From positions 1 to 52,748 of the forward strand of contig JAJDTT010000167.1 in assembly GCA_022827025.1 (NCBI GenBank): DNA of 52,748 nucleotides, read 5' to 3'. Origin of the DNA: Acidobacteriota bacterium (GTDB lineage Bacteria; Acidobacteriota; UBA6911; RPQK01; JAJDTT01). Position numbers and translations under genes: made by a program. Below the pieces are notes generated by a model, which did no database searches, had not been told where the DNA came from, and worked only from the letters and a program-made list of their open reading frames with translations. This document shows, in pieces, positions 19,936-32,049 of the stretch (its first letter is position 1; the number at the start of each line of letters is the position of its first letter).

Positions 19936-20532
19936 ATGGAGAAGACCGATGCCGAGTTGGTCATCGCGAGCCTGGAGGGCGCGCCGTATGCGTTCGAGCA
20001 GATCGTCCAGCGCTACGAGCGGCTGGTCTTCAGCATCGTCTACCATCAATTGGGCCGGCGGCAGGAAGTGGAAGACGTGGCTCAGGAGGTCTTCCTCAAG
20101 GTCTTCAACGCCCTCAGCCGATTTGATCGGCGCCGCCCGTTGAAGGCCTGGATCGCCAAGATCACGGTCAACCAATGCCGAGACGTATTGAGAAAGCGGC
20201 GGAGTTCCAGGGTGGAGGCGTTCTCCAACTTCACCGAAGAGGAAGAGAGGAGAATCCGGTCCCTTCACGATCTTTCCGCGGGCACGGCCGCCATGACGGA
20301 GGCGCAATCCAGAGCTTGCCTGAAGCTCCTGGACCAGCTCGTGCGCCGCTTGTCCCACAAGGACCGAACCGCATTCCTGCTCAGGGAGGTGGAGGGATTC
20401 GGCTATGATGAGGTCTCCAAGGTCCTGGGAAGCAGCCAGGTGGCGGCTCGAATCCGAGTCAGCCGCACGCGCAAGCGGCTGCTTGCGGCGCTGTCTCGAG
20501 TCCTTTCCGGCGGAGAAACGTTGAAACCATGA
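19936..20532 (+). CDS. ECF-type RNA polymerase sigma factor
   Basis: 198 residues. Region 2 is clear: 'YERLVFSIVYHQLGRRQEVEDVAQEVFLKVF' in part, then the promoter-melting helix 'FDRRRPLKAWIAKITVNQCRDVLRKRR' in part. Region 4 is also clear: 'LSHKDRTAFLLREVEGFGYDEVSKVLG' in part, followed by the HTH 'SQVAARIRVSRTRKRLL'. There is no region 3, which defines the ECF group. The gene starts at 19936 after a GGAGGA-like site. Its stop overlaps the ATG of the next membrane protein (ATGA), typical of a sigma/anti-sigma pair. It should direct transcription of an envelope-related regulon, possibly its own operon. Confidence 0.93.
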   Translation: MEKTDAELVIASLEGAPYAFEQIVQRYERLVFSIVYHQLGRRQEVEDVAQEVFLKVFNALSRFDRRRPLKAWIAKITVNQCRDVLRKRRSSRVEAFSNFTEEEERRIRSLHDLSAGTAAMTEAQSRACLKLLDQLVRRLSHKDRTAFLLREVEGFGYDEVSKVLGSSQVAARIRVSRTRKRLLAALSRVLSGGETLKP

Positions 20533-20951
20533 ATCGGAAAAAATTTCGGTTTGAAGACCTGGAGCGGAACGATACGCTGGATGAGGAACATCTGAAGTCC
20601 TGCGGACGGTACCGCCGGGAATTGCGCGCCTACCGCCTGTTTCGATTTCACCTGGAGCACTTGCCCCGAATCGAGCCTCCCCCCCATTTCGCCCGGACCG
20701 TGGCCCGGCTGGCCGAGGAAAGGCGGGTTGTGCCGTTCGCCCTGTTCCTGGAACGGGCCGCCCGGCAGTTGGCGCCCGGCTTGATCGCCCTGATGGGGGC
20801 CGTCTCCGTCCTGCTCTATCTGTTTTCGCAGCCGGTCGATGTGGGCTTGACTCCGTTGGAGAGCCTGCCCGAGGAGGCCTCCCTGGAATACACCGTCGAT
20901 TCCTTGAGGGCGTCGTCGGAAGGGGGTTGGATCATTGACGAATCGAACTAG
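20529..20951 (+). CDS. Probable anti-sigma factor, single-pass membrane protein
   Basis: 140 residues. The cytoplasmic N-terminus carries H-x3-C (HLKSC, residues ~20-24) but lacks the second cysteine of the usual Hx3Cx2C zinc anti-sigma motif. One transmembrane segment lies at about residues 80-100 (LAPGLIALMGAVSVLLYLF), followed by a short extracytoplasmic acidic tail. Position and overlap with the ECF gene argue for anti-sigma function. Sequence alone is not decisive. It overlaps the next gene by 17 nt. Confidence 0.6.
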   Translation: MNRKKFRFEDLERNDTLDEEHLKSCGRYRRELRAYRLFRFHLEHLPRIEPPPHFARTVARLAEERRVVPFALFLERAARQLAPGLIALMGAVSVLLYLFSQPVDVGLTPLESLPEEASLEYTVDSLRASSEGGWIIDESN

Positions 20952-21375
20952 GGCCGTCTGCTGGATCATCTTCGTATTCCTGGCGGGCAGCTTCGTCGGC
21001 GGCGTCTTGACCCACGTCCTGATCCGGCCGGCGCACTTCCATGCCGGAGGCGGCCCGGATCGGCGACACTCGGTACGAGAGCCCGGACGGCCCCGCCGCA
21101 ACGGGTCGCGGTTCCTCCGCCATCTGGATCAGGCTCTGGATCTGGACCCGGACCAGGAAGTCCAGGTGCGCCGGATCTTGGAGACCACCCGGAAATCGTT
21201 CCGCGAAGCGGCCGAGGAAGCCGGCAAGATGCACAGAGAGATCCGCAACCACGCCGGAAATCAGATTCGGGCCCTCCTCAGGCCGGAGCAGGTGGAGAAA
21301 TTCGACGAGATGACCCGGCGTATGGATCGAAGATTACGCGAAGGAAGACGTCGCAGGCCCGGGCCTGTTCAATGA
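20935..21375 (+). CDS. CpxP/Spy-like (periplasmic heavy-metal-sensor-type) membrane-anchored protein
   Basis: 146 residues from a TTG start at 20935, preceded by AGGGGG. An N-terminal anchor (WIIFVFLAGSFVGGVLTHVLI in part) is followed by a basic, Arg/His-rich segment. A helical region follows, with 'LDLDPDQEVQVRRILETTRK' and 'LRPEQVEKFDEM'. These are the paired 'LTxxQ...LTPEQ...F' helices of the CpxP/Spy/ZraP and heavy-metal-resistance family, which bind unfolded proteins or metals in the periplasm. Its location after the sigma and putative anti-sigma genes suggests it is the sensory or output component of the envelope response. Confidence 0.65.
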   Translation: MTNRTRAVCWIIFVFLAGSFVGGVLTHVLIRPAHFHAGGGPDRRHSVREPGRPRRNGSRFLRHLDQALDLDPDQEVQVRRILETTRKSFREAAEEAGKMHREIRNHAGNQIRALLRPEQVEKFDEMTRRMDRRLREGRRRRPGPVQ

Positions 21376-21440
21376 TTCAGCCTATCTACCGCGCAGACTC
21401 CTCGTCTTTCGAGGCGGTCCCCGCATCCTCCCGATATAGA

Positions 21441-22157
21441 ATGACGGCCTTCCTCAGCAGGTGTTGCCTCGCACTGGTCCTGTCGGGTGGCATCGCCCAG
21501 CCGCTCCCGGGTCAGGGTACAGCCGAAACCCACCCCAGGAAATGGGAGTTCTCGTTCCTGGCCGGCGCCGGGTTCCTGTCCGACGGGACATCAGGCCCTG
21601 CGGAGGCCGGGAATGGCTCCTCCCTGGTGACGCTCGACTACAAAGCCGGTTACTCGATGGCATTCGGCGTGATCGAGAACCTGGCCGAGAAGTTCGGGGC
21701 CGAGATGCGCTACGGCATCAACAGTCTTCCGTTCGGCTCGGTGGGCTCGGCGGAGGGACCTCCGATGCCGGAGCAGGCCCACTATGTCCATGAACTCACC
21801 TACAGCCTTCTGGTCTATCCTCACGGCTGGAAGCGGGGCCGTCTCATTCCGTATGCGTTGGCGGGCCTCGGCGCGTCGCTGTTCCAGCCGTCCGGCGACG
21901 CCGATGCGGCCTCCCGGGGCCTGGCCCTCAAGGGCCGCTGGAAGTTGGCGGGCGAGATGGGCGGTGGCGTCAAACTCTACCTGGATCCGTCCTGGAGCCT
22001 CCGCTTCGAGGTTCGGGACCGGCTCACGGGAGTCCCCGACTACGGTCTGCCCCGCGCGGCATCCCGGGACCAGGGTGCCGGAACAGCTCTGCCGGCAAGC
22101 GGCCGGCTGCACCATTGGCGGTTCCAGGCCGGCCTCACCTACAACGTCGCCCCCTGA
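21441..22157 (+). CDS. Outer-membrane beta-barrel-like exported protein
   Basis: 238 residues from the ATG at 21441, which places a normal signal peptide (MTAFLSRCCLALVLSGGIAQ) at the front. An ATG at 21372 overlaps the stop of the previous gene and would add 23 polar residues; neither start has a clear ribosome site. The mature part alternates beta strands with aromatic ends (WEFSFLAGAGFLSDG, TLDYKAGYSMAFGV, 'LIPYALAGLGASLF', 'GGGVKLYLDPSWSLRFEVRDRL'), and this together with the terminal 'HHWRFQAGLTYNVAP' resembles OmpA/OprF-type eight-stranded barrels. It probably belongs to the ECF sigma operon and may be its regulated output. Confidence 0.65.
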   Translation: MTAFLSRCCLALVLSGGIAQPLPGQGTAETHPRKWEFSFLAGAGFLSDGTSGPAEAGNGSSLVTLDYKAGYSMAFGVIENLAEKFGAEMRYGINSLPFGSVGSAEGPPMPEQAHYVHELTYSLLVYPHGWKRGRLIPYALAGLGASLFQPSGDADAASRGLALKGRWKLAGEMGGGVKLYLDPSWSLRFEVRDRLTGVPDYGLPRAASRDQGAGTALPASGRLHHWRFQAGLTYNVAP

Positions 22158-22252: not shown

Positions 22253-23035
22253 TCAGTGGGTCATGGCGTAAACGATGTAGTTGATTCCCAACTGGAAGGC
22301 CAGATTGGCGTACTTTCGAGGGTATTCTTCCACTTCGGCCCACTCCCACGCATCTCCGAGATCCACGTTGTGGTTGATCATCACCATGAGGCGTCCCCGC
22401 TCATCCATGACTCCCATGTAACGCGCGTCGTATCCGCCCTTCTCCCAGGTTTTTCCGTAGAACAGGTACTGGATTCCCGGAATCTGGATCAACTCGTCGA
22501 TGTCGTAATAGCAATGGAAGACCGGGTGAGACAGAGGCAGGTCCACCGGCTCGTATTCCGGGAACACCTTCTTGATCTGCTGGTAGAAGTTGTTCCACTC
22601 CCAGGGGCCGTGGAAGTCGTCCACCACGAGAAACCCGCCCCGCAAGAGGTATTCCCTCAGCTTCGACGCTTCCTGGTCGGAGAGATGCATTCTCCCGACC
22701 TCCACGGCGTAGAGAAAAGGATAGTCGAACACCTCCGAGTCCAGTATGGAGAGGGCCTTGTTGCCGGAAGAGACGAAGGTGAAGTCGCTCAGTTTCTCCA
22801 GGCCGTACAGGAATTGGAGGTCGGCCTTCGGATAGTCGGTCTGCCAGCTCCAGCTCCATCCCCGGCGCGCCCAGCCGGGACCCGAGTAGATGAGTCGCAG
22901 AAAAGTGAATTCCGAGTCATGCCGGCCGGCCGCTTCGGGCTCATGGTGGTCGCCACCGGCAGCCAGGGCCAACCAGGTCAGCGGCGCCGCCGCGATCAGC
23001 AGCCACAGCTTTCCGAATGCCGGTTTCGGGAACAC
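22253..23035 (-). CDS. DUF4159 protein, exported
   Basis: 260 residues with an N-terminal hydrophobic signal (LWLLIAAAPLTWLALAAGG). The body is DUF4159, with the recognisable 'FTFLRLIYSGPGWARRGWSWSWQTDYP' (in part), 'YAVEVGRMHLSDQEASKLREYLLRGGFLVVDDFHG' (in part) and 'HPVFHCYYDI'. The fold is a glutamine-amidotransferase-like (flavodoxin-type) domain. These proteins are widespread in Acidobacteriota and Planctomycetes, often near MoxR/DUF58/BatA clusters, with no known activity. Here it stands alone, convergent with the barrel gene and divergent from the S41 gene. Confidence 0.82.
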   Translation of the reverse strand: MFPKPAFGKLWLLIAAAPLTWLALAAGGDHHEPEAAGRHDSEFTFLRLIYSGPGWARRGWSWSWQTDYPKADLQFLYGLEKLSDFTFVSSGNKALSILDSEVFDYPFLYAVEVGRMHLSDQEASKLREYLLRGGFLVVDDFHGPWEWNNFYQQIKKVFPEYEPVDLPLSHPVFHCYYDIDELIQIPGIQYLFYGKTWEKGGYDARYMGVMDERGRLMVMINHNVDLGDAWEWAEVEEYPRKYANLAFQLGINYIVYAMTH

Positions 23036-23307: not shown

Positions 23308-24618
23308 ATGCAGTGGATCACGCCGATCGGCCGTAGCGGTCGAGGGAATGACGGGGTGACGGTCGTCTTCGCCAAGGGGAAGCTGGCGATTCTGTTGCTT
23401 TCGGCGCTGGTGGTCGGCTACGGGCTCGTGGGCGGATCCATGGACCGGGTTGCGGCCCGGGACGCGTCATACCAGGAACTCTCCCTCTTCATAGCGGTCG
23501 TCAAGCGGGTCCGGGAAGACTATGTCGAAAAACCTGTGATGAAGGACGCTTTCTTGGGCGCTCTGCACGGCATGGTCGAGGCGGTGGACCCCTACTCAAG
23601 CTACGTACCCCAGGAGAGTTACGAGCAGGTTCAGGCGCGTACCGAAGCCCAAGCCTCACCCGGGATCTACATTTCCAAGCGTTACGGTTACGCCTACGTG
23701 GTCGCCGTAGTGCGCGGGAGTCCGGCCGAGCGGGAAGGGATGCGAACCGGCGATTGGATCGAGTCCATCGATTCCCGAAAAACGACGCAGATGAGCCGCT
23801 GGGAGGCGCAGAACATGCTCCAGGGAGCGCCCGGCACCGAGGTGAAGCTCAGGCTGATCCGGCCGCGCCGGCCGCCCGCCGTAATCCGGTTGGTGCGGGA
23901 GGCGCCCATCCCCGAACAGGTCAAGGCGGAGGTCATGGAGACGGGGCTGGGCCGGCTCCGGATTCCGAGTCTTCAGGCCGGCAGCGCCGAACAGGTGCGG
24001 AAGGGGTTGCGGATGCTGCGGTCCGCGGGTGTGAAGGGAATCCTGGTGGATGTGCGAGGCGTGGCCGCGGGGGAAGTGGCCGAGGCCGTCGAGATTGCGG
24101 GACTCCTGCTTCCCAAGGGGAGCAGGGTGCTCACCGTCAAGGATCGTCAGAAACGTTCCGTGGTGCACGCCACGACCGCCGAGCCCTTGCTGGCCGGAGT
24201 TCCGGCGGTGGTGTTGGTAGACGGAGGAACCAGCGGGGCGGCCGAGGTGCTTGCGGCGGCGTTGAAGGACCATGACGTGGCTACGGTCGTGGGTTTGAAG
24301 ACGGATGGCAGAGGGTCGGGACAGGAGCTTTTCCATCTCGGAGACGGATCGGTGCTGTATCTCGCGACCAAGCTCTACTATCGGCCCAACGGCAGCGCGA
24401 TCCAAAAGAAAAAGCTCAAGGATTCCGGAATCTCCCCCGATGTTCGAGCTCCGGACGAGGATTTCGTTTCCAGTTTCTACCTGGAGAACGTCTCGGACGA
24501 CCCTGATGCGGAATTGGGAGTCGATTTTTACAAGGGCTTGGAAAGAGCTGTCCGCGAAAGACAGTTCCAGCAGGGACTCGACGAACTGCGAGGCCGGCTG
24601 GCCAGGAAAGCTGCATGA
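23308..24618 (+). CDS. S41 (CtpA/Tsp)-type protease homologue with both catalytic residues replaced
   Basis: 436 residues. It has an N-terminal anchor (about 27-45), a helical lead (AVKRVREDYVEKP), a PDZ domain (about 112-195, 'GSPAEREGMRTGDWIESID'), then the S41 core. In active enzymes the core has a S-x-S-A-S-E nucleophile loop and a T-F-G-K-G lysine 25 residues later (E. coli Tsp Ser430/Lys455). Here the loop reads G-G-T-S-G-A-A-E with Gly310 at the serine position, and the lysine motif reads T-D-G-R-G with Arg335, exactly 25 residues on. The conserved Asp (LKD) 11 residues after the serine site is kept. It is therefore probably a non-proteolytic periplasmic PDZ scaffold or chaperone. Ser309, one residue earlier, could in principle substitute. 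It lies 53 nt before HU. Confidence 0.88.
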   Translation: MQWITPIGRSGRGNDGVTVVFAKGKLAILLLSALVVGYGLVGGSMDRVAARDASYQELSLFIAVVKRVREDYVEKPVMKDAFLGALHGMVEAVDPYSSYVPQESYEQVQARTEAQASPGIYISKRYGYAYVVAVVRGSPAEREGMRTGDWIESIDSRKTTQMSRWEAQNMLQGAPGTEVKLRLIRPRRPPAVIRLVREAPIPEQVKAEVMETGLGRLRIPSLQAGSAEQVRKGLRMLRSAGVKGILVDVRGVAAGEVAEAVEIAGLLLPKGSRVLTVKDRQKRSVVHATTAEPLLAGVPAVVLVDGGTSGAAEVLAAALKDHDVATVVGLKTDGRGSGQELFHLGDGSVLYLATKLYYRPNGSAIQKKKLKDSGISPDVRAPDEDFVSSFYLENVSDDPDAELGVDFYKGLERAVRERQFQQGLDELRGRLARKAA

Positions 24619-24671: not shown

Positions 24672-24944
24672 ATGAACAAGGCTGAGTTGATCGGAGTTGT
24701 CGCCGGAAAGGCGAACCTCAGCAGAAGCGATGCTCGATCCGCGGTGGAGGCCATGGTGTCCACCATCCGGGCGGCCATGAAAAACGGCGGCAAGGTTTCC
24801 CTCGTGGGGTTCGGCACGTTTTCGGCTCCCCTCCGTCCCGCTCGGCCGGGGCGCAACCCTCGGACCGGAGAAGCGATTCAGATTCCCGCCAGAAAGGTTC
24901 CCAAATTCACGCCGGGGAGATCATTGAGGGACTCGATTCAGTAG
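24672..24944 (+). CDS. hup: HU-family nucleoid protein
   Basis: 90 residues, the standard length, starting MNKAELIGVVAGKANLSRS after AAGGAGAACGGGGA. The DNA-binding beta-arm signature 'VGFGTFSAPLRPARPGRNPRTGE' (in part) has the invariant GRNP, and the C-terminal 'PARKVPKFTPGRSLRD' is also typical. It forms dimers that bend DNA without strong sequence preference. IHF subunits share the fold but differ in flank residues, so HU is the better call. A hairpin terminator overlaps its last codons. Confidence 0.95.
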   Translation: MNKAELIGVVAGKANLSRSDARSAVEAMVSTIRAAMKNGGKVSLVGFGTFSAPLRPARPGRNPRTGEAIQIPARKVPKFTPGRSLRDSIQ

Positions 24945-25073: not shown

Positions 25074-25148
25074 AGGTGCGTAGCTCAGGGGGAGAGCACT
25101 TCCTTGACGCGGAAGGGGTCAGCGGTTCAAATCCGCTCGCACCTACCA
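25074..25148 (+). tRNA. tRNA-Val (GAC anticodon), CCA encoded
   Basis: Acceptor AGGTGCG/CGCACCT; D arm GCTC-AGGGGGA-GAGC; anticodon arm CTTCC-TTGACGC-GGAAG giving GAC (reads GUC/GUU, Val); T arm AGCGG-TTCAAAT-CCGCT; A discriminator and encoded CCA. A TATGAT at 25060-25065 sits at the right distance for a -10. The thrS start codon is 43 nt downstream. Confidence 0.95.
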
Positions 25149-25190
25149 TTTTTTTATGCGGTTGGCATTGGTATCCGGGGTTCGATCCAA

Positions 25191-26993
25191 ATGGCCGGAC
25201 AGAACATAATGAAGACCATCCACCGGGATGGAACCGTTCATGAAGTCTTCGATCCCGACGAAGCCCTGGAAACCCTGCGCCATTCGACATCTCACCTGAT
25301 GGCCCTGGCGGTCAGCCACCTCTTCCCGGAAGTGAGTCTGGGCATCGGTCCTCCTACCGGCGAAGGCTTCTACTACGATTTCCAGATGCCGCACCGGCTG
25401 ACGGAGGATGATCTGCCCCGAATCGAAGCCAAGATGGAAGAGCTCAGGGCAGAGAATCTGGTTTTTGAGCCGTCCATTCTGGAGCGGTCCGAAGCGCTGG
25501 ATTTCTTTCGCAGTCACGGCGAGGAGTTGAAGACCGAGTTGATCGAAGAGCGGAAAGGAGAGGTTCTCTCTTCCTATCGCCTGGGTGACCTGGTGGATTT
25601 CTGCACCGGCCCGCACGTGCTCTCCACGGCTCAGCTCGGCTCCTTCCGGCTGCTTTCCGTTGCCGGTTCCTATTGGAGGGGCGACGAACACCGGGAACAA
25701 CTGCAAAGGATCTACGGAACGGCTTTTTTCTCGTCCCGGGAACTGGATGACTACCTGAAGCGGCTGGAGGAAGCCAGGAACCGCGACCATCGGAAACTGG
25801 GCCGGGAACTGGATCTCTACTCGGTTCCGGAGGGCGTCGCTCCAGGTCTCATATTCTGGCATCCCAAGGGGGCCAAGGTCCGCGAGAAGATCGAGGAGTT
25901 TCTGCGCGAAGAGCATGAAAAGCGCGGTTACGAGTTCGTATACACGCCCCATATCGCCAAGTCCGACCTCTGGAGGACGTCCGGCCACTACGAGTTTTTC
26001 CTGGAGAACATGTACACGTTGCCCGTGGACGAGGAAGAGTACGTACTCAAGCCCATGAACTGTCCCGGACACATCCTCATATACAAGTCGAGGAAACGCA
26101 GTTACCGTGAACTGCCCATCCGTCTCGCCGAATTCGGTACGGTCTATCGGTACGAGAAGTCGGGAACGCTCCACGGGATGCTTCGCGTTCGGGGATTCAC
26201 CCAGGACGACGCGCATATCTTCTGCCGCCCGGACCAGGTTTTTTCGGAAGTGGTTGCCACCTTGGACCTTGCCGAGTATCTTCTCAGCACGTTCGGCTTT
26301 CAGGGCCATGAGATCATGTTGGCCGTCTGGGATTCGGAACACACCGAGCACTACGCCGGAAAACCTGAAGATTGGGAGAGGGCCGAGTCGGTTCTGATCC
26401 AGGCGTTGGAGGAAAAGGGTTGGACGTACCGCCGCCAGGAGGGCGAGGCTGCTTTCTACGGTCCCAAGATCGACATCAGCCTGATCGATGCTCTGGGGCG
26501 CACCTGGCAGGTCACCACGTTGCAGTTCGATTTCAACCTGCCGGCCCGCTTCAACATTACCTATGCCGATTCCGATTCCCGCGAACAGCACGTCATCATG
26601 TTGCATCGGGCTCTGCTGGGTTCCATGGAGCGGTTCATGGGGATCCTGGTCGAGCACTATGGAGGCGCGTTTCCACCCTGGCTGTCGCCGGTGCAGGCGG
26701 CGGTGGTCCCGGTGAGCGAACGGCACCATGACTACGCGGTCGAGGTCCGCGACCGGCTCCGGGGGACAGGCTTGCGTGTCGAGGCGGACTTGAGAAACGA
26801 GAAGTTGGGTTACAAGATCAGGAGCGCCCAGATGAGCAAGGTGCCGTACATGCTCGTCGTGGGCGATCGAGAGGTGCAGGGCCGTACCGTATCGGTGCGA
26901 GATCGCCGGCGGGGCAATCAAGGGGCATGCCCGTTGGACGATTTTTCCCGGATGCTGGGTCAAAAGGTGGCGCAAAGATCGCTGGACGTCTGA
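25191..26993 (+). CDS. thrS: Threonyl-tRNA synthetase lacking the N-terminal TGS domain
   Basis: 600 residues from the ATG at 25191 (a second ATG at 25209 is possible). The editing domain is present with HSTSHLMALAVSH (H-x3-H) and 'DFCTGPHV', the Cys/His set that removes misactivated serine. The class II core has 'KSDLWRTSGHYEFF', the zinc ligand in 'MNCPGH', 'RVRGFTQDDAHIF' and 'HRALLGSMERF'. The anticodon-binding domain at the end has 'VEADLRNEKLGYKIR'. Only ~30 residues precede the editing domain. E. coli ThrRS has a ~60-residue TGS domain there, so TGS is missing. No upstream coding frame could supply it because tRNA-Val occupies that DNA. It heads the translation cluster. Confidence 0.96.
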   Translation: MAGQNIMKTIHRDGTVHEVFDPDEALETLRHSTSHLMALAVSHLFPEVSLGIGPPTGEGFYYDFQMPHRLTEDDLPRIEAKMEELRAENLVFEPSILERSEALDFFRSHGEELKTELIEERKGEVLSSYRLGDLVDFCTGPHVLSTAQLGSFRLLSVAGSYWRGDEHREQLQRIYGTAFFSSRELDDYLKRLEEARNRDHRKLGRELDLYSVPEGVAPGLIFWHPKGAKVREKIEEFLREEHEKRGYEFVYTPHIAKSDLWRTSGHYEFFLENMYTLPVDEEEYVLKPMNCPGHILIYKSRKRSYRELPIRLAEFGTVYRYEKSGTLHGMLRVRGFTQDDAHIFCRPDQVFSEVVATLDLAEYLLSTFGFQGHEIMLAVWDSEHTEHYAGKPEDWERAESVLIQALEEKGWTYRRQEGEAAFYGPKIDISLIDALGRTWQVTTLQFDFNLPARFNITYADSDSREQHVIMLHRALLGSMERFMGILVEHYGGAFPPWLSPVQAAVVPVSERHHDYAVEVRDRLRGTGLRVEADLRNEKLGYKIRSAQMSKVPYMLVVGDREVQGRTVSVRDRRRGNQGACPLDDFSRMLGQKVAQRSLDV

Positions 26994-27026
26994 CCACTAT
27001 CTAAGGCATTCCGATCATTTGTCCCC

Positions 27027-27581
27027 GTGGGTTCTAAATTGATTCGAAGAAGAAGAGGAGCCGATTCTATTCAGAGAGCACGAGTCAATCATCGGATAAG
27101 AGCCAGGGAAATCCGGGTCATCGACGAGAATGGGAGCCAGTTGGGCATCATGGGTCCGCCCGAGGCCAGGCGGCTGGCTCAGGAGAGGTCCCTCGACCTG
27201 GTCGAGGTCGCTCCCACTGCCAGGCCTCCGGTTTGTCGAATCATGGACTACGGGAAGTACCTGTACCAGCAACGAAAGAAGGCTCAGGAGGCGCGAAAGC
27301 ACCAGAAGGTCATTCAGGTCAAGGAAGTCAAGTTCCGGCCCAAGATCGACCAGCATGACTATGAATTCAAGAAGAAACACATTCTGCGTTTCTTGAAGGA
27401 CGAAAACAGGGTCAAGGCCACCGTCATTTTCAGGGGCCGGGAGATCACCCACTCCGAGCTGGGCGAGGAGATCCTGAACCAGCTCCGTGGCGAGCTGACC
27501 GAGGTCGCGGACGTCGAGCGGCGACCCCGGTTGGAAGGCCACACCATGACCATGATTCTGGTGCCCAGAAAACAGCCCTGA
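27027..27581 (+). CDS. infC: Translation initiation factor IF-3
   Basis: Up to 184 residues. The N-domain ('[23 protein letters not shown]' in part), linker ('[19 protein letters not shown]') and C-domain ('[16 protein letters not shown]', 'MTMILVPRK') are all intact. No ATG exists in frame between the thrS stop and the conserved sequence. The candidates are GTG 27027, TTG 27039 and ATT 27042. GTGGG lies ~7 nt before the TTG/ATT pair, favouring a start there, while 27027 gives the longest product. A rare start codon is known to let IF-3 repress its own translation in E. coli. Order thrS-infC-rpmI-rplT-pheST is the classic cluster. Confidence 0.96.
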
Positions 27582-27684
27582 ATCCACTCGGATTTCCGCT
27601 TCAGACCCGGTTCCACAAACGGCCGGGCCCGGTTTTCACCAAGCCGGGCATGAGCGATCCGGGTACAAAGCGAGGAAAACGGCG

Positions 27685-27876
27685 ATGCGATTGAAGACCA
27701 AGCGCGCGGCAGCCAAGCGATTCAAGATCACGGGGTCGGGAAAGATCAGCCGGCGGCACAGCCACCACAGCCATATCCTGACCAAGAAGAGTCGGAAGCG
27801 GAAGCGGAAACTGAAGGACTGGGCCGGCCTGTCCTCTGCAGACAAGAGGCGGGTGCGGAAGATGCTGCATATTTAG
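27685..27876 (+). CDS. rpmI: 50S ribosomal protein L35
   Basis: 63 residues, very basic, with [20 protein letters not shown] at the front and the conserved '[19 protein letters not shown]' segment. The length matches the family (~64). A GAGGAAAACG-type ribosome site precedes the ATG. It is co-transcribed with infC and rplT, and assembles in the large subunit near the exit-tunnel side. Confidence 0.96.
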
Positions 27877-27912
27877 CAGCCGCGGGGTCCTGCGGGTGCT
27901 GGAGGTTCCATC

Positions 27913-28269
27913 ATGTCGAGGGTAAAGAGAGGCGTTAAGCGAAAGCGGAGACGCAAGAAGATTCTGCGCTTGGCCAAGGGTTACTGGGGCGCCAAGGGCC
28001 GGCTGCACCGGGCAGCGAAGGAACAGGTAAATCGTTCTCTGGCCTACTCCTATCGGGACCGGCGGCAGAAGAAGAGGAACTTTCGCAGGCTCTGGATCAT
28101 CCGGGTCAACGCGGCCGCGCGCCAGCACAGCCTTTCCTACAGCCAGTTCATGCACGGCCTGAAGAAAGCCGGATTGGATCTGAGCCGAAAGATGCTGGCC
28201 GATCTGGCCGTCAGAGATCCAAAGGCCTTCGGCAAGATCGCCGACATGGCGCGGAGTGCCTTGCGTTAG
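27913..28269 (+). CDS. rplT: 50S ribosomal protein L20
   Basis: 118 residues, full length, with '[31 protein letters not shown]' (in part), '[17 protein letters not shown]' and '[25 protein letters not shown]' (in part). GGAGG sits ~7 nt before the ATG. L20 nucleates 23S rRNA folding and, in E. coli, represses rpmI-rplT translation. I could not make out a matching pseudoknot here. Confidence 0.97.
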
Positions 28270-28327
28270 ACAGGCGTTTGCGCCGGATTCTCAACCTTCC
28301 CCGAATTCCATTCCTGGATCAGAGTCG

Positions 28328-29356
28328 ATGAAGCCGGAAGATCCGACTCATCTCTGGCAGAGTTTTCAGGCTGAATTGCGGGATGTCTCCTCCAAGGCGG
28401 CTCTCACCCGGCTGCGGGACCGCTATCTCAGCCGTCAAAGAGGCCTGCTGACGCTCCAGTTGAGGGGTCTGGGACGACTCGCTCCCCAGGACCGGCCCCG
28501 GGTGGGCAAGAGCCTGAACCAGATCAAGGGCCGGATCGAATCGGCTCTGGCTGAGCGGGGCCGGGCACTCGAGGCCGAACAGCGCCGGGCCCAGCTCGAA
28601 TCGGAACGTCTGGATATCACTCTCCCGGGCTATCTCCCCCCTCAGGGCCGGCCTCATCCGCTGACACGGGTGCGGCGCGAAATGGAGGAGATCTCCGTGC
28701 GAATGGGGTTCTCCGTCCTTTCGGGACCGGAGCTGGAACTGGATCACTACAATTTCGAAGCGCTCAACATGCCCAAGGGGCATCCTGCCCGGGACATGCA
28801 GGATACGCTCTATATCACCGAGAACCTGCTGCTGAGGACCCACACCTCCCCGGTCCAGATCCGGACCATGGAGCGCCAGCAACCCCCCATCCGCATGGTG
28901 GTTCCCGGTCGCGTCTACCGCCGCGACACCGTGGACGCGACTCACAGCCCCATGTTCCACCAGATGGAAGGCCTGGTCGTGGACGAGGGGATCACCTTCG
29001 GAGACCTGAAGGGAACTCTGGAAGTCTTCTTGAGAGAGCTGTTCTCCAGTGACCTGAAGGTGAGGTTCCGGCCCAGCTACTTCCCCTTCGTCGAGCCCGG
29101 AGCCGAGGTGGACATCGAGTGCATCTTCTGCTCATCACGGGTGGGGTGCGGAGTCTGCAAACGCACCGGATGGATCGAGATCATGGGCGCGGGCATGGTC
29201 CATCCCCGGGTATTTTCCATGGTGGGATACGACGCCGAGCGCTATACCGGATTCGCTTGGGGAATGGGAATCGATCGCATTGCCATCCTCAAGTATCGCG
29301 TCAGAGACCTGCGACTCTTTTTCGACAATGACCTCAGGTTTCTCCGGCAGTTCTGA
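28328..29356 (+). CDS. pheS: Phenylalanyl-tRNA synthetase alpha subunit
   Basis: 342 residues from the ATG at 28328. An N-terminal coiled coil (about 1-100) contacts the tRNA acceptor arm. Class II motifs follow: 'HPLTRVRREMEEISVRMGF', the substrate loop 'MPKGHPARDMQDTLYI', 'RVYRRDTVDATHSPMFHQMEGL' (in part) and motif 3 'FAWGMGIDRIAILKYRVRDLR'. A Cys-rich insert is present (CIFCSSRVGCGVCKRTGW), giving four cysteines that could bind zinc. Zinc-like cysteine sets occur in a subset of bacterial PheS. It pairs with pheT 35 nt downstream to form the alpha2beta2 enzyme. Confidence 0.96.
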   Translation: MKPEDPTHLWQSFQAELRDVSSKAALTRLRDRYLSRQRGLLTLQLRGLGRLAPQDRPRVGKSLNQIKGRIESALAERGRALEAEQRRAQLESERLDITLPGYLPPQGRPHPLTRVRREMEEISVRMGFSVLSGPELELDHYNFEALNMPKGHPARDMQDTLYITENLLLRTHTSPVQIRTMERQQPPIRMVVPGRVYRRDTVDATHSPMFHQMEGLVVDEGITFGDLKGTLEVFLRELFSSDLKVRFRPSYFPFVEPGAEVDIECIFCSSRVGCGVCKRTGWIEIMGAGMVHPRVFSMVGYDAERYTGFAWGMGIDRIAILKYRVRDLRLFFDNDLRFLRQF

Positions 29357-29391
29357 CCCGGCGGCGCCGTGTCGAATCAGACAGTGACGTC

Positions 29392-31446
29392 ATGAAGATC
29401 GGGTGGAGATGGCTGCGGGAATACCTGGACCTCCAGGGAATCGACTCGGATCGGCTCTCCGAAGCTCTGGGCATGCTGGGTTTCCCCGTGGAGTCCGTGG
29501 AGGAGACCGGGGAGGGTCGGGTCCTGGAACTGGAGGTGACGACGAACCGGCCTGATTGTCTGAATCACCTGGGCGTCGCCCGGGAGATCTCGGCCAGATT
29601 CGGACTGGAACTCGGGATCCCCGACCTTTCGGAGCCGTCCGGGAGCGCCGTCTCAAGGCCGCGGGCGCAGGTCTCGATCGAGGCGCCGGACCTGTGCCCC
29701 AGGTACGCGGCCCGGGTCATGTCGGGCGTGAAGATCGGACCCTCCCCCGATTGGCTCAAGAGGCGGATCGAGTCAGTCGGGCAAAGGCCCATCAACAACG
29801 TCGTCGACGTCACGAATTTCGTCCTCTACGAGTTGGGCCAGCCCCTGCACGGCTTCGATCTGGACCGCTTGGGCGAACGGAGAATCGTCGTCCGCAGAGC
29901 GTCGGAAGGGGAGTCCCTGACCACGTTGGACGGCGTGGACAGGCGCCTCGACCCGTCCATGCTGGTCATTGCCGATGCCACTCGAGCCGTGGCGCTGGCC
30001 GGCATCATGGGAGGGATGGAAACGGAGATTTCCGGCGCGACCAGGAATCTGCTTCTGGAGAGCGCCTACTTCGAGCCGATGTCCGTCCGGCGCGCCGCCA
30101 AGCGGTTGGGAATGCGAACCGATGCCTCCTACCGTTTCGAGCGGGGCGCGGATCCGGACATGGCGCCCAAGGCCTTGAACCGGGCCTGCCGGATGATCCA
30201 GGAGATTGCCGGAGGCGCCTGCGAGGGTCCGGTGATCGACGAGTTCCCCCGGCCCATTCCCGCCCGGGAGATCCGGCTTCGAAGCTGCCGGTTGGCCCAG
30301 GTGCTGGGTGTCCCTGCGGATCCGGATTTCATCGAAGAGGTGCTGGGCCGCCTGGGTTTCGAGCTGGAGCCCCAGGGTGACGGTTCCTGGAGGATTCGTG
30401 TTCCCAGCTTCCGGGCGGACGTGGCCCTCGAGGACGATCTGGTGGAGGAGGTTGCACGCGAATATGGCTACGATCGGCTTCCGACCACCTATCCCGCCGC
30501 CGCGACGGCCGGCAGGTTCTCCGAGTCGGAAGGACATAAGAGGCGGGTGTCGTCCTCACTGGAGTCCTGTGGATTCTACGAGGCCATGAACTACGCCTTC
30601 ACCAATCCGGGCAGGGAGGAGATCTTCCTCGGCCGGCGGACGCCGCTGGTTCCCATTGCCAACCCGCTTTCCGAAGATCACACGCATCTGAGAAGCACGA
30701 TCCTTCCGGGTTTGGCGGAATCGATTCGGCACAATCTGAATTTCGGCAACCGGAGCGTCCGTCTCTTCGAGACCGGGAAGGTCTTCTTTCAGAGAGGCGA
30801 GGATCCCGAGCAGGCGCAGGAGGCGCCATGTCTGGGGCTGGCGGCCACCGGGTCGGCCCATGGTCCGTTTTGGAGCGGCGCTTCGGAGCCTTTCGGATTT
30901 CATCACCTGAAAGGGGTCCTTCAACTGCTGTTCCGGAACTTCGGATTCGAGGTCGAATACCGCGCGGTTGCCAGGCTGCCGTTTCTTCATCCCGGCGTCG
31001 CCGCGGAGATCGTGCGGGACGAACGCCGCGTCGGCCTCTTGGGAAAACTTCACCCCCGGCTCCATGCACACTACAAATTTTCTCAGGACGTACTGGTGGC
31101 GGAGCTCCGGTTGGACGAGTTGTACGGCCGGGACCTCCAGGACCCGGCGTATGGGGTTTTGTCGCGGTTTCCGTCGGTGGAGCACGACTTTTCGTTTCTC
31201 GTTGACAAGAGTGTGAGTTTCGCTAAACTTGAAAATGCCATTCGGGGCCTGAGCATTCCGGAGCTTCGGGACATCAGGCTCATTGATCTCTATCGCGGCT
31301 CGAGTGTTCCCAAAGATAAGGTTGGCTTGACTCTGCGTCTGACCTTCGCCGATGTGGAGAGGACGCTGACTCTGCCTGAGGTCAAGCACCTTAGTGAACG
31401 GGTTTTTTCCTTTATGCGCCAGGAATTGGGCGTGGAAGGGCGGTAG
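29392..31446 (+). CDS. pheT: Phenylalanyl-tRNA synthetase beta subunit, short form without the EMAP-type tRNA-binding domain
   Basis: 684 residues, against ~790-800 in E. coli and most bacteria. After the first ~30 residues (MKIGWRWLREYL...LGFPVESVEE) the sequence goes directly to 'VLELEVTTNRPDCLNHLGVAREIS' (in part). The OB-fold tRNA_bind (EMAP/B2-like) insert of about 110 residues is missing. B3/B4 (the editing domain, 'YELGQPLHGFDLDRL', 'GIMGGMETEIS') and B5 follow, then the catalytic-like core. The C-terminal FDX-ACB domain ('FPSVEHDFSFLVDKSVSFAKLE', in part) is complete. Both frame and length are clean, so this is a genuine short form. Confidence 0.95.
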   Translation: MKIGWRWLREYLDLQGIDSDRLSEALGMLGFPVESVEETGEGRVLELEVTTNRPDCLNHLGVAREISARFGLELGIPDLSEPSGSAVSRPRAQVSIEAPDLCPRYAARVMSGVKIGPSPDWLKRRIESVGQRPINNVVDVTNFVLYELGQPLHGFDLDRLGERRIVVRRASEGESLTTLDGVDRRLDPSMLVIADATRAVALAGIMGGMETEISGATRNLLLESAYFEPMSVRRAAKRLGMRTDASYRFERGADPDMAPKALNRACRMIQEIAGGACEGPVIDEFPRPIPAREIRLRSCRLAQVLGVPADPDFIEEVLGRLGFELEPQGDGSWRIRVPSFRADVALEDDLVEEVAREYGYDRLPTTYPAAATAGRFSESEGHKRRVSSSLESCGFYEAMNYAFTNPGREEIFLGRRTPLVPIANPLSEDHTHLRSTILPGLAESIRHNLNFGNRSVRLFETGKVFFQRGEDPEQAQEAPCLGLAATGSAHGPFWSGASEPFGFHHLKGVLQLLFRNFGFEVEYRAVARLPFLHPGVAAEIVRDERRVGLLGKLHPRLHAHYKFSQDVLVAELRLDELYGRDLQDPAYGVLSRFPSVEHDFSFLVDKSVSFAKLENAIRGLSIPELRDIRLIDLYRGSSVPKDKVGLTLRLTFADVERTLTLPEVKHLSERVFSFMRQELGVEGR

Positions 31447-31746: not shown

Positions 31747-32049
31747 ATGGATCAAAGCGTCACGGTCAAGATATTTCACCGTACGTATCGTATTCGGAGC
31801 CGAGGTGATGCCGAACACGTCCGGGACCTGGCAGACTACGTGGACCGCCACATGGTCCGGATCTCCGATCAGACGCCGACGGTAGACACGCTCAGGGTCG
31901 CCATTTTGGCCGCATTGAGCATTGCCGACGAATGCCTTGCCGCCAGAAGGCGGCTGGAAAGAGTTGAAGCGACAGTCTGCCGCAGGAGCGGAGAATTGAA
32001 TGAGCTCCTGAGGTCCGCGCTGAGTCCCGAGGACTCCGAACGGACCTGA
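31747..32049 (+). CDS. zapA: Cell division protein ZapA
   Basis: 100 residues. The N-terminal globular part 'VTVKIFHRTYRIRSRGDAEHVRDLADYVDRHM' (in part) and the following helix 'TVDTLRVAILAALSIADECL' are characteristic. ZapA tetramers cross-link FtsZ filaments at midcell. It starts 19 nt after the coiled-coil gene. It is followed by the 6S RNA, echoing the zapA-ssrS linkage known in proteobacteria. Confidence 0.9.
   Translation: MDQSVTVKIFHRTYRIRSRGDAEHVRDLADYVDRHMVRISDQTPTVDTLRVAILAALSIADECLAARRRLERVEATVCRRSGELNELLRSALSPEDSERT

Follow-up and report, generated by a model that had tools for sequence, protein, structure and literature searches.

A CtpA-like pseudoprotease probably kept as a binding protein across the phylum Acidobacteriota

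Can a bacterium lose the catalytic residues of a conserved envelope protease and keep the protein, and if so, for what? The question is raised by a gene in a 52,748-nucleotide stretch of an Acidobacteriota genome (GenBank assembly GCA_022827025.1, contig JAJDTT010000167.1; hereafter the window), which databases label merely as an S41 peptidase domain protein. An earlier note, made from the DNA sequence, had described it as an S41/CtpA-type protease (CTP) without its catalytic pair, and as a possible maintained pseudo-protease rather than a decaying gene. Pseudoproteases have mostly been studied in eukaryotes. Here, we analyse this gene, referred to as pseudo-CTP, together with its relatives and neighbours.

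An intact CtpA-like gene with a degenerate active site

The reading frame is open and intact over 436 amino acids (Table 1). Homologues at the order level begin about 19 residues downstream, and a later start was therefore considered and rejected: of the 12 base differences that genus members show over the first 57 bases, 11 are at third codon positions, which favours the longer form and makes the ATG at 23308 the likely start. Pfam detects Peptidase_S41 (PF03572; E = 1.1e-33, residues 214-380) preceded by a PDZ domain (PDZ_6; E = 1.2e-12, residues 131-185), and the NCBIfam model TIGR00225 (prc) gives 201 bits, under its curated cut-off of 218.6. The AlphaFold model has pLDDT values mostly between 84 and 97 over the PDZ domain and core, falling to low values in the first 60 residues; Foldseek returned the CtpA proteins of Helicobacter pylori and Pseudomonas aeruginosa and CtpB as best matches (E ~1e-32), and the S41 core fold is kept in the predicted structure. 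The two CtpA enzymes (S41A) are also the best matches in sequence and share the N-terminal dimerisation region, PDZ domain and S41 core, while Bacillus subtilis CtpB (S41A) has the same domain order, the PDZ gate and the triad Gln that pseudo-CTP retains. Pseudo-CTP is expected to be a membrane-anchored envelope protein facing the periplasm.

Table 1 Features of pseudo-CTP and of the conserved downstream genes, in window coordinates.
Feature	Position	Strand	Basis
Pseudo-CTP gene (S41A-like, predicted catalytically dead), 436 aa	23308..24618	+	ORF, Pfam, alignment to CtpA/CtpB
N-terminal membrane anchor, ~residues 24-45	23377..23442	+	Helix in model
Ser32 codon in anchor helix	23401-23403	+	Ser in 93/100 dead-clade members
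N-terminal dimerisation-type region, residues 53-114, including Tyr96	23464..23649	+	Homology to CtpA/CtpB
PDZ domain, residues 115-198, including Gln172	23650..23901	+	Pfam; column conservation
S41 core domain, residues 205-385	23920..24462	+	PF03572 match, fold match
Eroded oxyanion-loop motif, Val-Ala-Ala-Gly (252-255) for Asn-Pro-Gly-Gly	24061..24072	+	Column comparison
Gly310 at nucleophile Ser position	24235..24237	+	Alignment to active CTPs
Asp321 kept (Tsp Asp441 position)	24268..24270	+	Alignment
Arg335 at general-base Lys position	24310..24312	+	Alignment to active CTPs
Gln339 kept (CtpB Gln338 position, third CtpB triad member)	24322..24324	+	Alignment
HU-family DNA-binding protein gene, next downstream	24672..24944	+	PF00216 8e-31; syntenic in much of class
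thrS, infC, rplT, pheS, pheT, conserved downstream block	25104..31446	+	ORFs, synteny
zapA, closes conserved downstream block	31747..32049	+	PF05164 1e-18, synteny

Alignment to the solved CtpA and CtpB structures sets the GGTSGAAE of pseudo-CTP against GGSASAAE or GGSASASE and Arg335 against the Lys of (F)GKG, with the 25-residue spacing between Gly310 and Arg335 exactly as in active enzymes; CtpB Ser309, Lys334 and Arg168 correspond to Gly310, Arg335 and Gln172. The by-eye reading of the earlier note (Gly for the nucleophile, Arg for the catalytic Lys at preserved spacing, structural Asp and PDZ domain kept, gene otherwise intact) is borne out. Because Gly and Arg stand where the Ser-Lys dyad was looked for, pseudo-CTP falls outside the active S41A proteases, with which alignment and tree indicate common descent.

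Whereas CtpA enzymes carry Ser and Lys and hydrolyse their substrates, pseudo-CTP has lost more than this pair. We compared the columns of the dead clade described below with those of 32 active CTPs; the roles of the matching residues are known from CtpA and CtpB (PMC11021448, PMC3808539). The oxyanion-loop motif, with Asn and both Gly present in 32/32 active enzymes and Pro in 30/32, is eroded. The active-site His (27/32 active CTPs) is Tyr96 in the window protein and is lost in dead members, and Arg or Lys at the CtpB Arg168 position is found in 31/32 active sequences versus 38/102 dead ones. This PDZ switch Arg is frequently missing from the dead clade, as is the first Gly of the carboxylate-loop motif, so ligand binding may differ from that of CtpB. 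The residues that dead members retain, Asp248, Arg250, Gly255, Glu313, Gly334 and mostly Gln339, are all common to active enzymes. Tyr55, Gly84, Thr308 and Thr332 are the columns that the dead clade has gained; no catalytic constellation was found among them. Judged from these columns, CTP-type catalysis has almost certainly been lost, and the purified protein would be expected to lack proteolytic activity. Ser32 in the membrane helix, kept in nearly all dead members, is unconserved in active CTPs; a plain anchor would not need it, so its retention hints at a partner within the membrane.

Purifying selection and a conserved locus

The genus contributes three further orthologues (G001-G003; 87-90% identity), with Gly at 310 and Arg at 335. 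Every full-length orthologue in the order has Gly at 310, its residue at 335 being R, Q, H or E; elsewhere in the class, G, A or S is found at 310 and M, I, V, A, L, F or Q at 335. Lys at 335 occurs in none of the class orthologues and the dyad is missing from all class members; close orthologues carrying Ser and Lys, which would have spoken against the earlier proposal, were not found. Pairwise dN/dS within the genus is 0.16-0.21, similar to the ranges for pheT (0.18-0.24) and HU (0.07-0.30) in the same genomes; infC gives 0.03-0.08. Pseudo-CTP is maintained by purifying selection; this and the loss of the dyad across orthologues support the view of a maintained pseudo-protease.

Within the class, pseudo-CTP is present in 37 of 38 genomes, together with a separate active Ser/Lys paralogue. 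The count includes G009, where a stretch of N breaks the gene, and G012, where it is split between contigs; the one genome lacking it, G036, is 76% complete. An apparent deletion of the catalytic loop in the G009 homologue (L046/L090) proved to be an artefact, as the frame crosses the N stretch into unrelated sequence.

The gene order in most of the class is mltG and ruvX (opposite strand), pseudo-CTP, HU, thrS, infC, rplT, pheS, pheT and zapA. The mltG-ruvX pair is usually divergent from pseudo-CTP; a single family, f7 (L180), has ruvX-mltG-pseudoCTP-HU-thrS all on one strand. About 18 family codes in all have the pair upstream, f19, f24, f26, f29, f32, f36, f40, f51, f61 and f62 among them. 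Its recurrence in many families, several of which share the thrS to zapA block downstream, makes mltG-ruvX / pseudo-CTP / (HU) thrS-infC-rplT-pheST-zapA the likely ancestral locus. The conserved locus before HU suspected earlier is thus real, but its deep neighbours are mltG-ruvX and the thrS to zapA block, not HU alone.

Other arrangements occur. In the Terriglobia-type family f18, a class A PBP gene lies downstream in 9/9 genome loci read, usually with a PASTA protein, and in f26 pseudo-CTP is followed by uppS, cdsA and dxr (cdsA and dxr being assigned by sequence and not by family search). In deep families such as f31, f33, f34 and f52, the loci read showed none of these neighbours, and orthology goes by profile and tree only. 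The window's genus has lost mltG-ruvX from this side of the locus, and mltG is located on a different contig. The place held by mltG-ruvX in the class is occupied in the window by a divergent DUF4159 gene (22253-23035, minus strand), itself under strong purifying selection in the genus (dN/dS 0.06-0.10). Beyond it, positions 19936-22157 encode in a row an ECF sigma factor, a weak anti-sigma match, an LTXXQ-like (Spy/CpxP type) protein and a possible outer-membrane beta-barrel, perhaps an envelope-stress cluster.

The active copy is encoded elsewhere. The window genome has a second S41 gene, on contig 164, with an intact NSASASE...SFGKA site, and the full-length S41 paralogues read in the class all carry Ser and Lys with one exception (L148, on contig 274 of G037), a separate paralogue with Ser but Thr for Lys that groups with active CTPs. 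Active paralogues are 540-700 aa long and about 28% identical to the dead copy. In 8/14 loci read, the active gene is followed by one for a LysM/SLT (MltD-like) transglycosylase; at L344:1889-5389 this gene comes directly after it.

A clade of short CTPs across the phylum

We searched 396 acidobacterial genomes with a profile of the dead clade (A3) and read extra short hits from families where the active enzyme was the best hit. The combined set contains 132 distinct short CTPs and spans more than 70 acidobacterial family codes. The dyad is missing in 129 of them, with Gly at the nucleophile position in 106 and Lys at the general-base position in six. Ser and Lys are both present only in L227, L228 and L254, all of family code f33, while L230 and L253, members of the same largely dead clade, combine Gly with Lys; in these five, catalysis may have been either retained or regained.

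A quick tree that also included active CTPs from Acidobacteriota and from eight further phyla unites the short CTPs in a single clade (SH-aLRT 100), to the exclusion of every active CTP sampled; deep order within that clade is weak. Parsimony on this tree gives Gly as the clade-base state at 310, with 12 changes, and Lys as still present at the base at 335, with 43 changes. As a lead from one quick tree, this suggests a single loss of the nucleophile at the root of the clade, with Lys drifting later. With the nucleophile apparently gone first, the Ser of f33 would be a regain, and its position beside a kept Lys makes f33 a candidate for a pseudoprotease regaining its active site.

The apparent restriction of the dead clade to this phylum comes from searches with two order-level peptide patterns, whose non-acidobacterial matches all carry Ser and Lys. 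The short CTPs are, by these sequence criteria, a new, phylum-wide branch of predicted pseudoenzymes in the S41A family. Our literature searches, which covered papers available without subscription, turned up no account of dead CTPs as a clade in this phylum. Nearly the whole phylum keeps a dead CTP copy in addition to a working one, often close to genes for the cell wall, and the dead copy is therefore probably a binding protein retained for use and not a broken gene.

A proposed binding role and its alternatives

What would such a protein bind? Our best explanation overall, held with modest confidence, is a maintained pseudoprotease that acts through binding rather than cutting. One ancient acidobacterial CTP paralogue would have lost its nucleophile early while retaining its fold and PDZ domain. 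The PDZ domain and dead core could then capture the exposed C-terminal tails of envelope proteins, the best candidate clients being the peptidoglycan enzymes MltG and class A PBP, of a type that active CTPs break down in other bacteria. Held near the membrane, these would be shielded from the cell's active Ser/Lys CTP or passed to it. A role in shielding or delivery best accounts for a membrane-anchored dead CTP whose gene has mltG or a class A PBP gene as its neighbour. In E. coli, MltG is a substrate of Prc (PMC7481392), which leads us to propose a non-proteolytic PDZ scaffold regulating peptidoglycan enzymes or the active CTP; MltD is among the proteins degraded by NlpI-Prc, which also has effects on PBPs (PMC10671308). 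Prc/Tsp, acting with NlpI, belongs to the same superfamily, and the gene for its client MltG adjoins pseudo-CTP in most of the class, although Prc is proteolytically active, periplasmic and far longer. Pseudo-CTP is predicted to bind peptides. The cell-wall role and the peptidoglycan clients are suggested by gene neighbourhood only, and against them the link is missing in the window's genus, was not seen in several deep families, and mostly involves a divergent mltG-ruvX pair. A bolder version, in which pseudo-CTP is an ancient, near-universal counterweight to the active CTP in peptidoglycan control and a membrane-bound protector or deliverer of MltG and PBP1a, we hold to be unlikely.

Pseudo-CTP might instead be a regulatory subunit, pairing through its N-terminal region with the active Ser/Lys CTP in a mixed dimer or ring whose dead member controls activation or the delivery of substrates. 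The CtpA N-dimers of P. aeruginosa (PMC11021448) and H. pylori (PMC12749690) have one active subunit each, an arrangement that a permanently inactive partner would fit. Dead and active copies co-occur in class genomes, and conservation of the dimerisation region in the dead clade comes close to that in active CTPs (2.21 versus 2.39 bits). However, the length and divergence of the active paralogue make an interface match doubtful, and the two genes are non-adjacent in the loci read, leaving this a minority possibility.

Somewhat less probable is a binding protein unrelated to peptidoglycan, its mltG context being only a relic of the ancestral gene order around housekeeping genes. The thrS-infC-rplT-pheST-zapA block is indeed mostly housekeeping, and both the window's genus, without an adjoining mltG, and deep families with none of these neighbours keep pseudo-CTP. 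Yet the three separate arrangements, with mltG, with PBP1a and PASTA, and with uppS-cdsA-dxr, each add genes for the cell wall or for envelope precursors.

That the protein is still an enzyme, with Ser309 or Thr308 as nucleophile or with new chemistry in the S41 pocket, appears improbable. Thr308 stays Thr or Ser across the dead clade and Gly310 is strongly conserved, as its few inferred changes indicate; but the general base is gone, the oxyanion loop is degenerate and the gained columns offer no catalytic constellation. Ser309 was rejected as a substitute nucleophile, since position 309 varies (S, A, T, G, N) and no general base is left. Decay towards loss would account for the missing active-site residues but is contradicted by conservation, both in the spread of the gene over class and phylum and in its low dN/dS, and can be given almost no weight.

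The favoured reading, a dead protease kept for binding, has parallels. IRBP, a retinoid-binding protein with S41-like domains, puts the S41 fold to a non-protease binding use, though it differs from pseudo-CTP in being vertebrate and secreted and in having a small-molecule ligand. The rhomboid pseudoproteases iRhom and Dfm1 offer a precedent for dead homologues maintained to bind clients or regulate active partners; unlike pseudo-CTP, they are eukaryotic and have an unrelated intramembrane fold.

In this case a whole bacterial phylum retains, alongside a conserved envelope protease that is still live, a paralogue of it that is dead. Members of family f33 provide a test case for the return of a lost active site. 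If peptidoglycan enzymes are indeed shielded or delivered by pseudo-CTP, this would be a non-proteolytic form of CTP control over the cell wall, testable in cultured Acidobacteriaceae.
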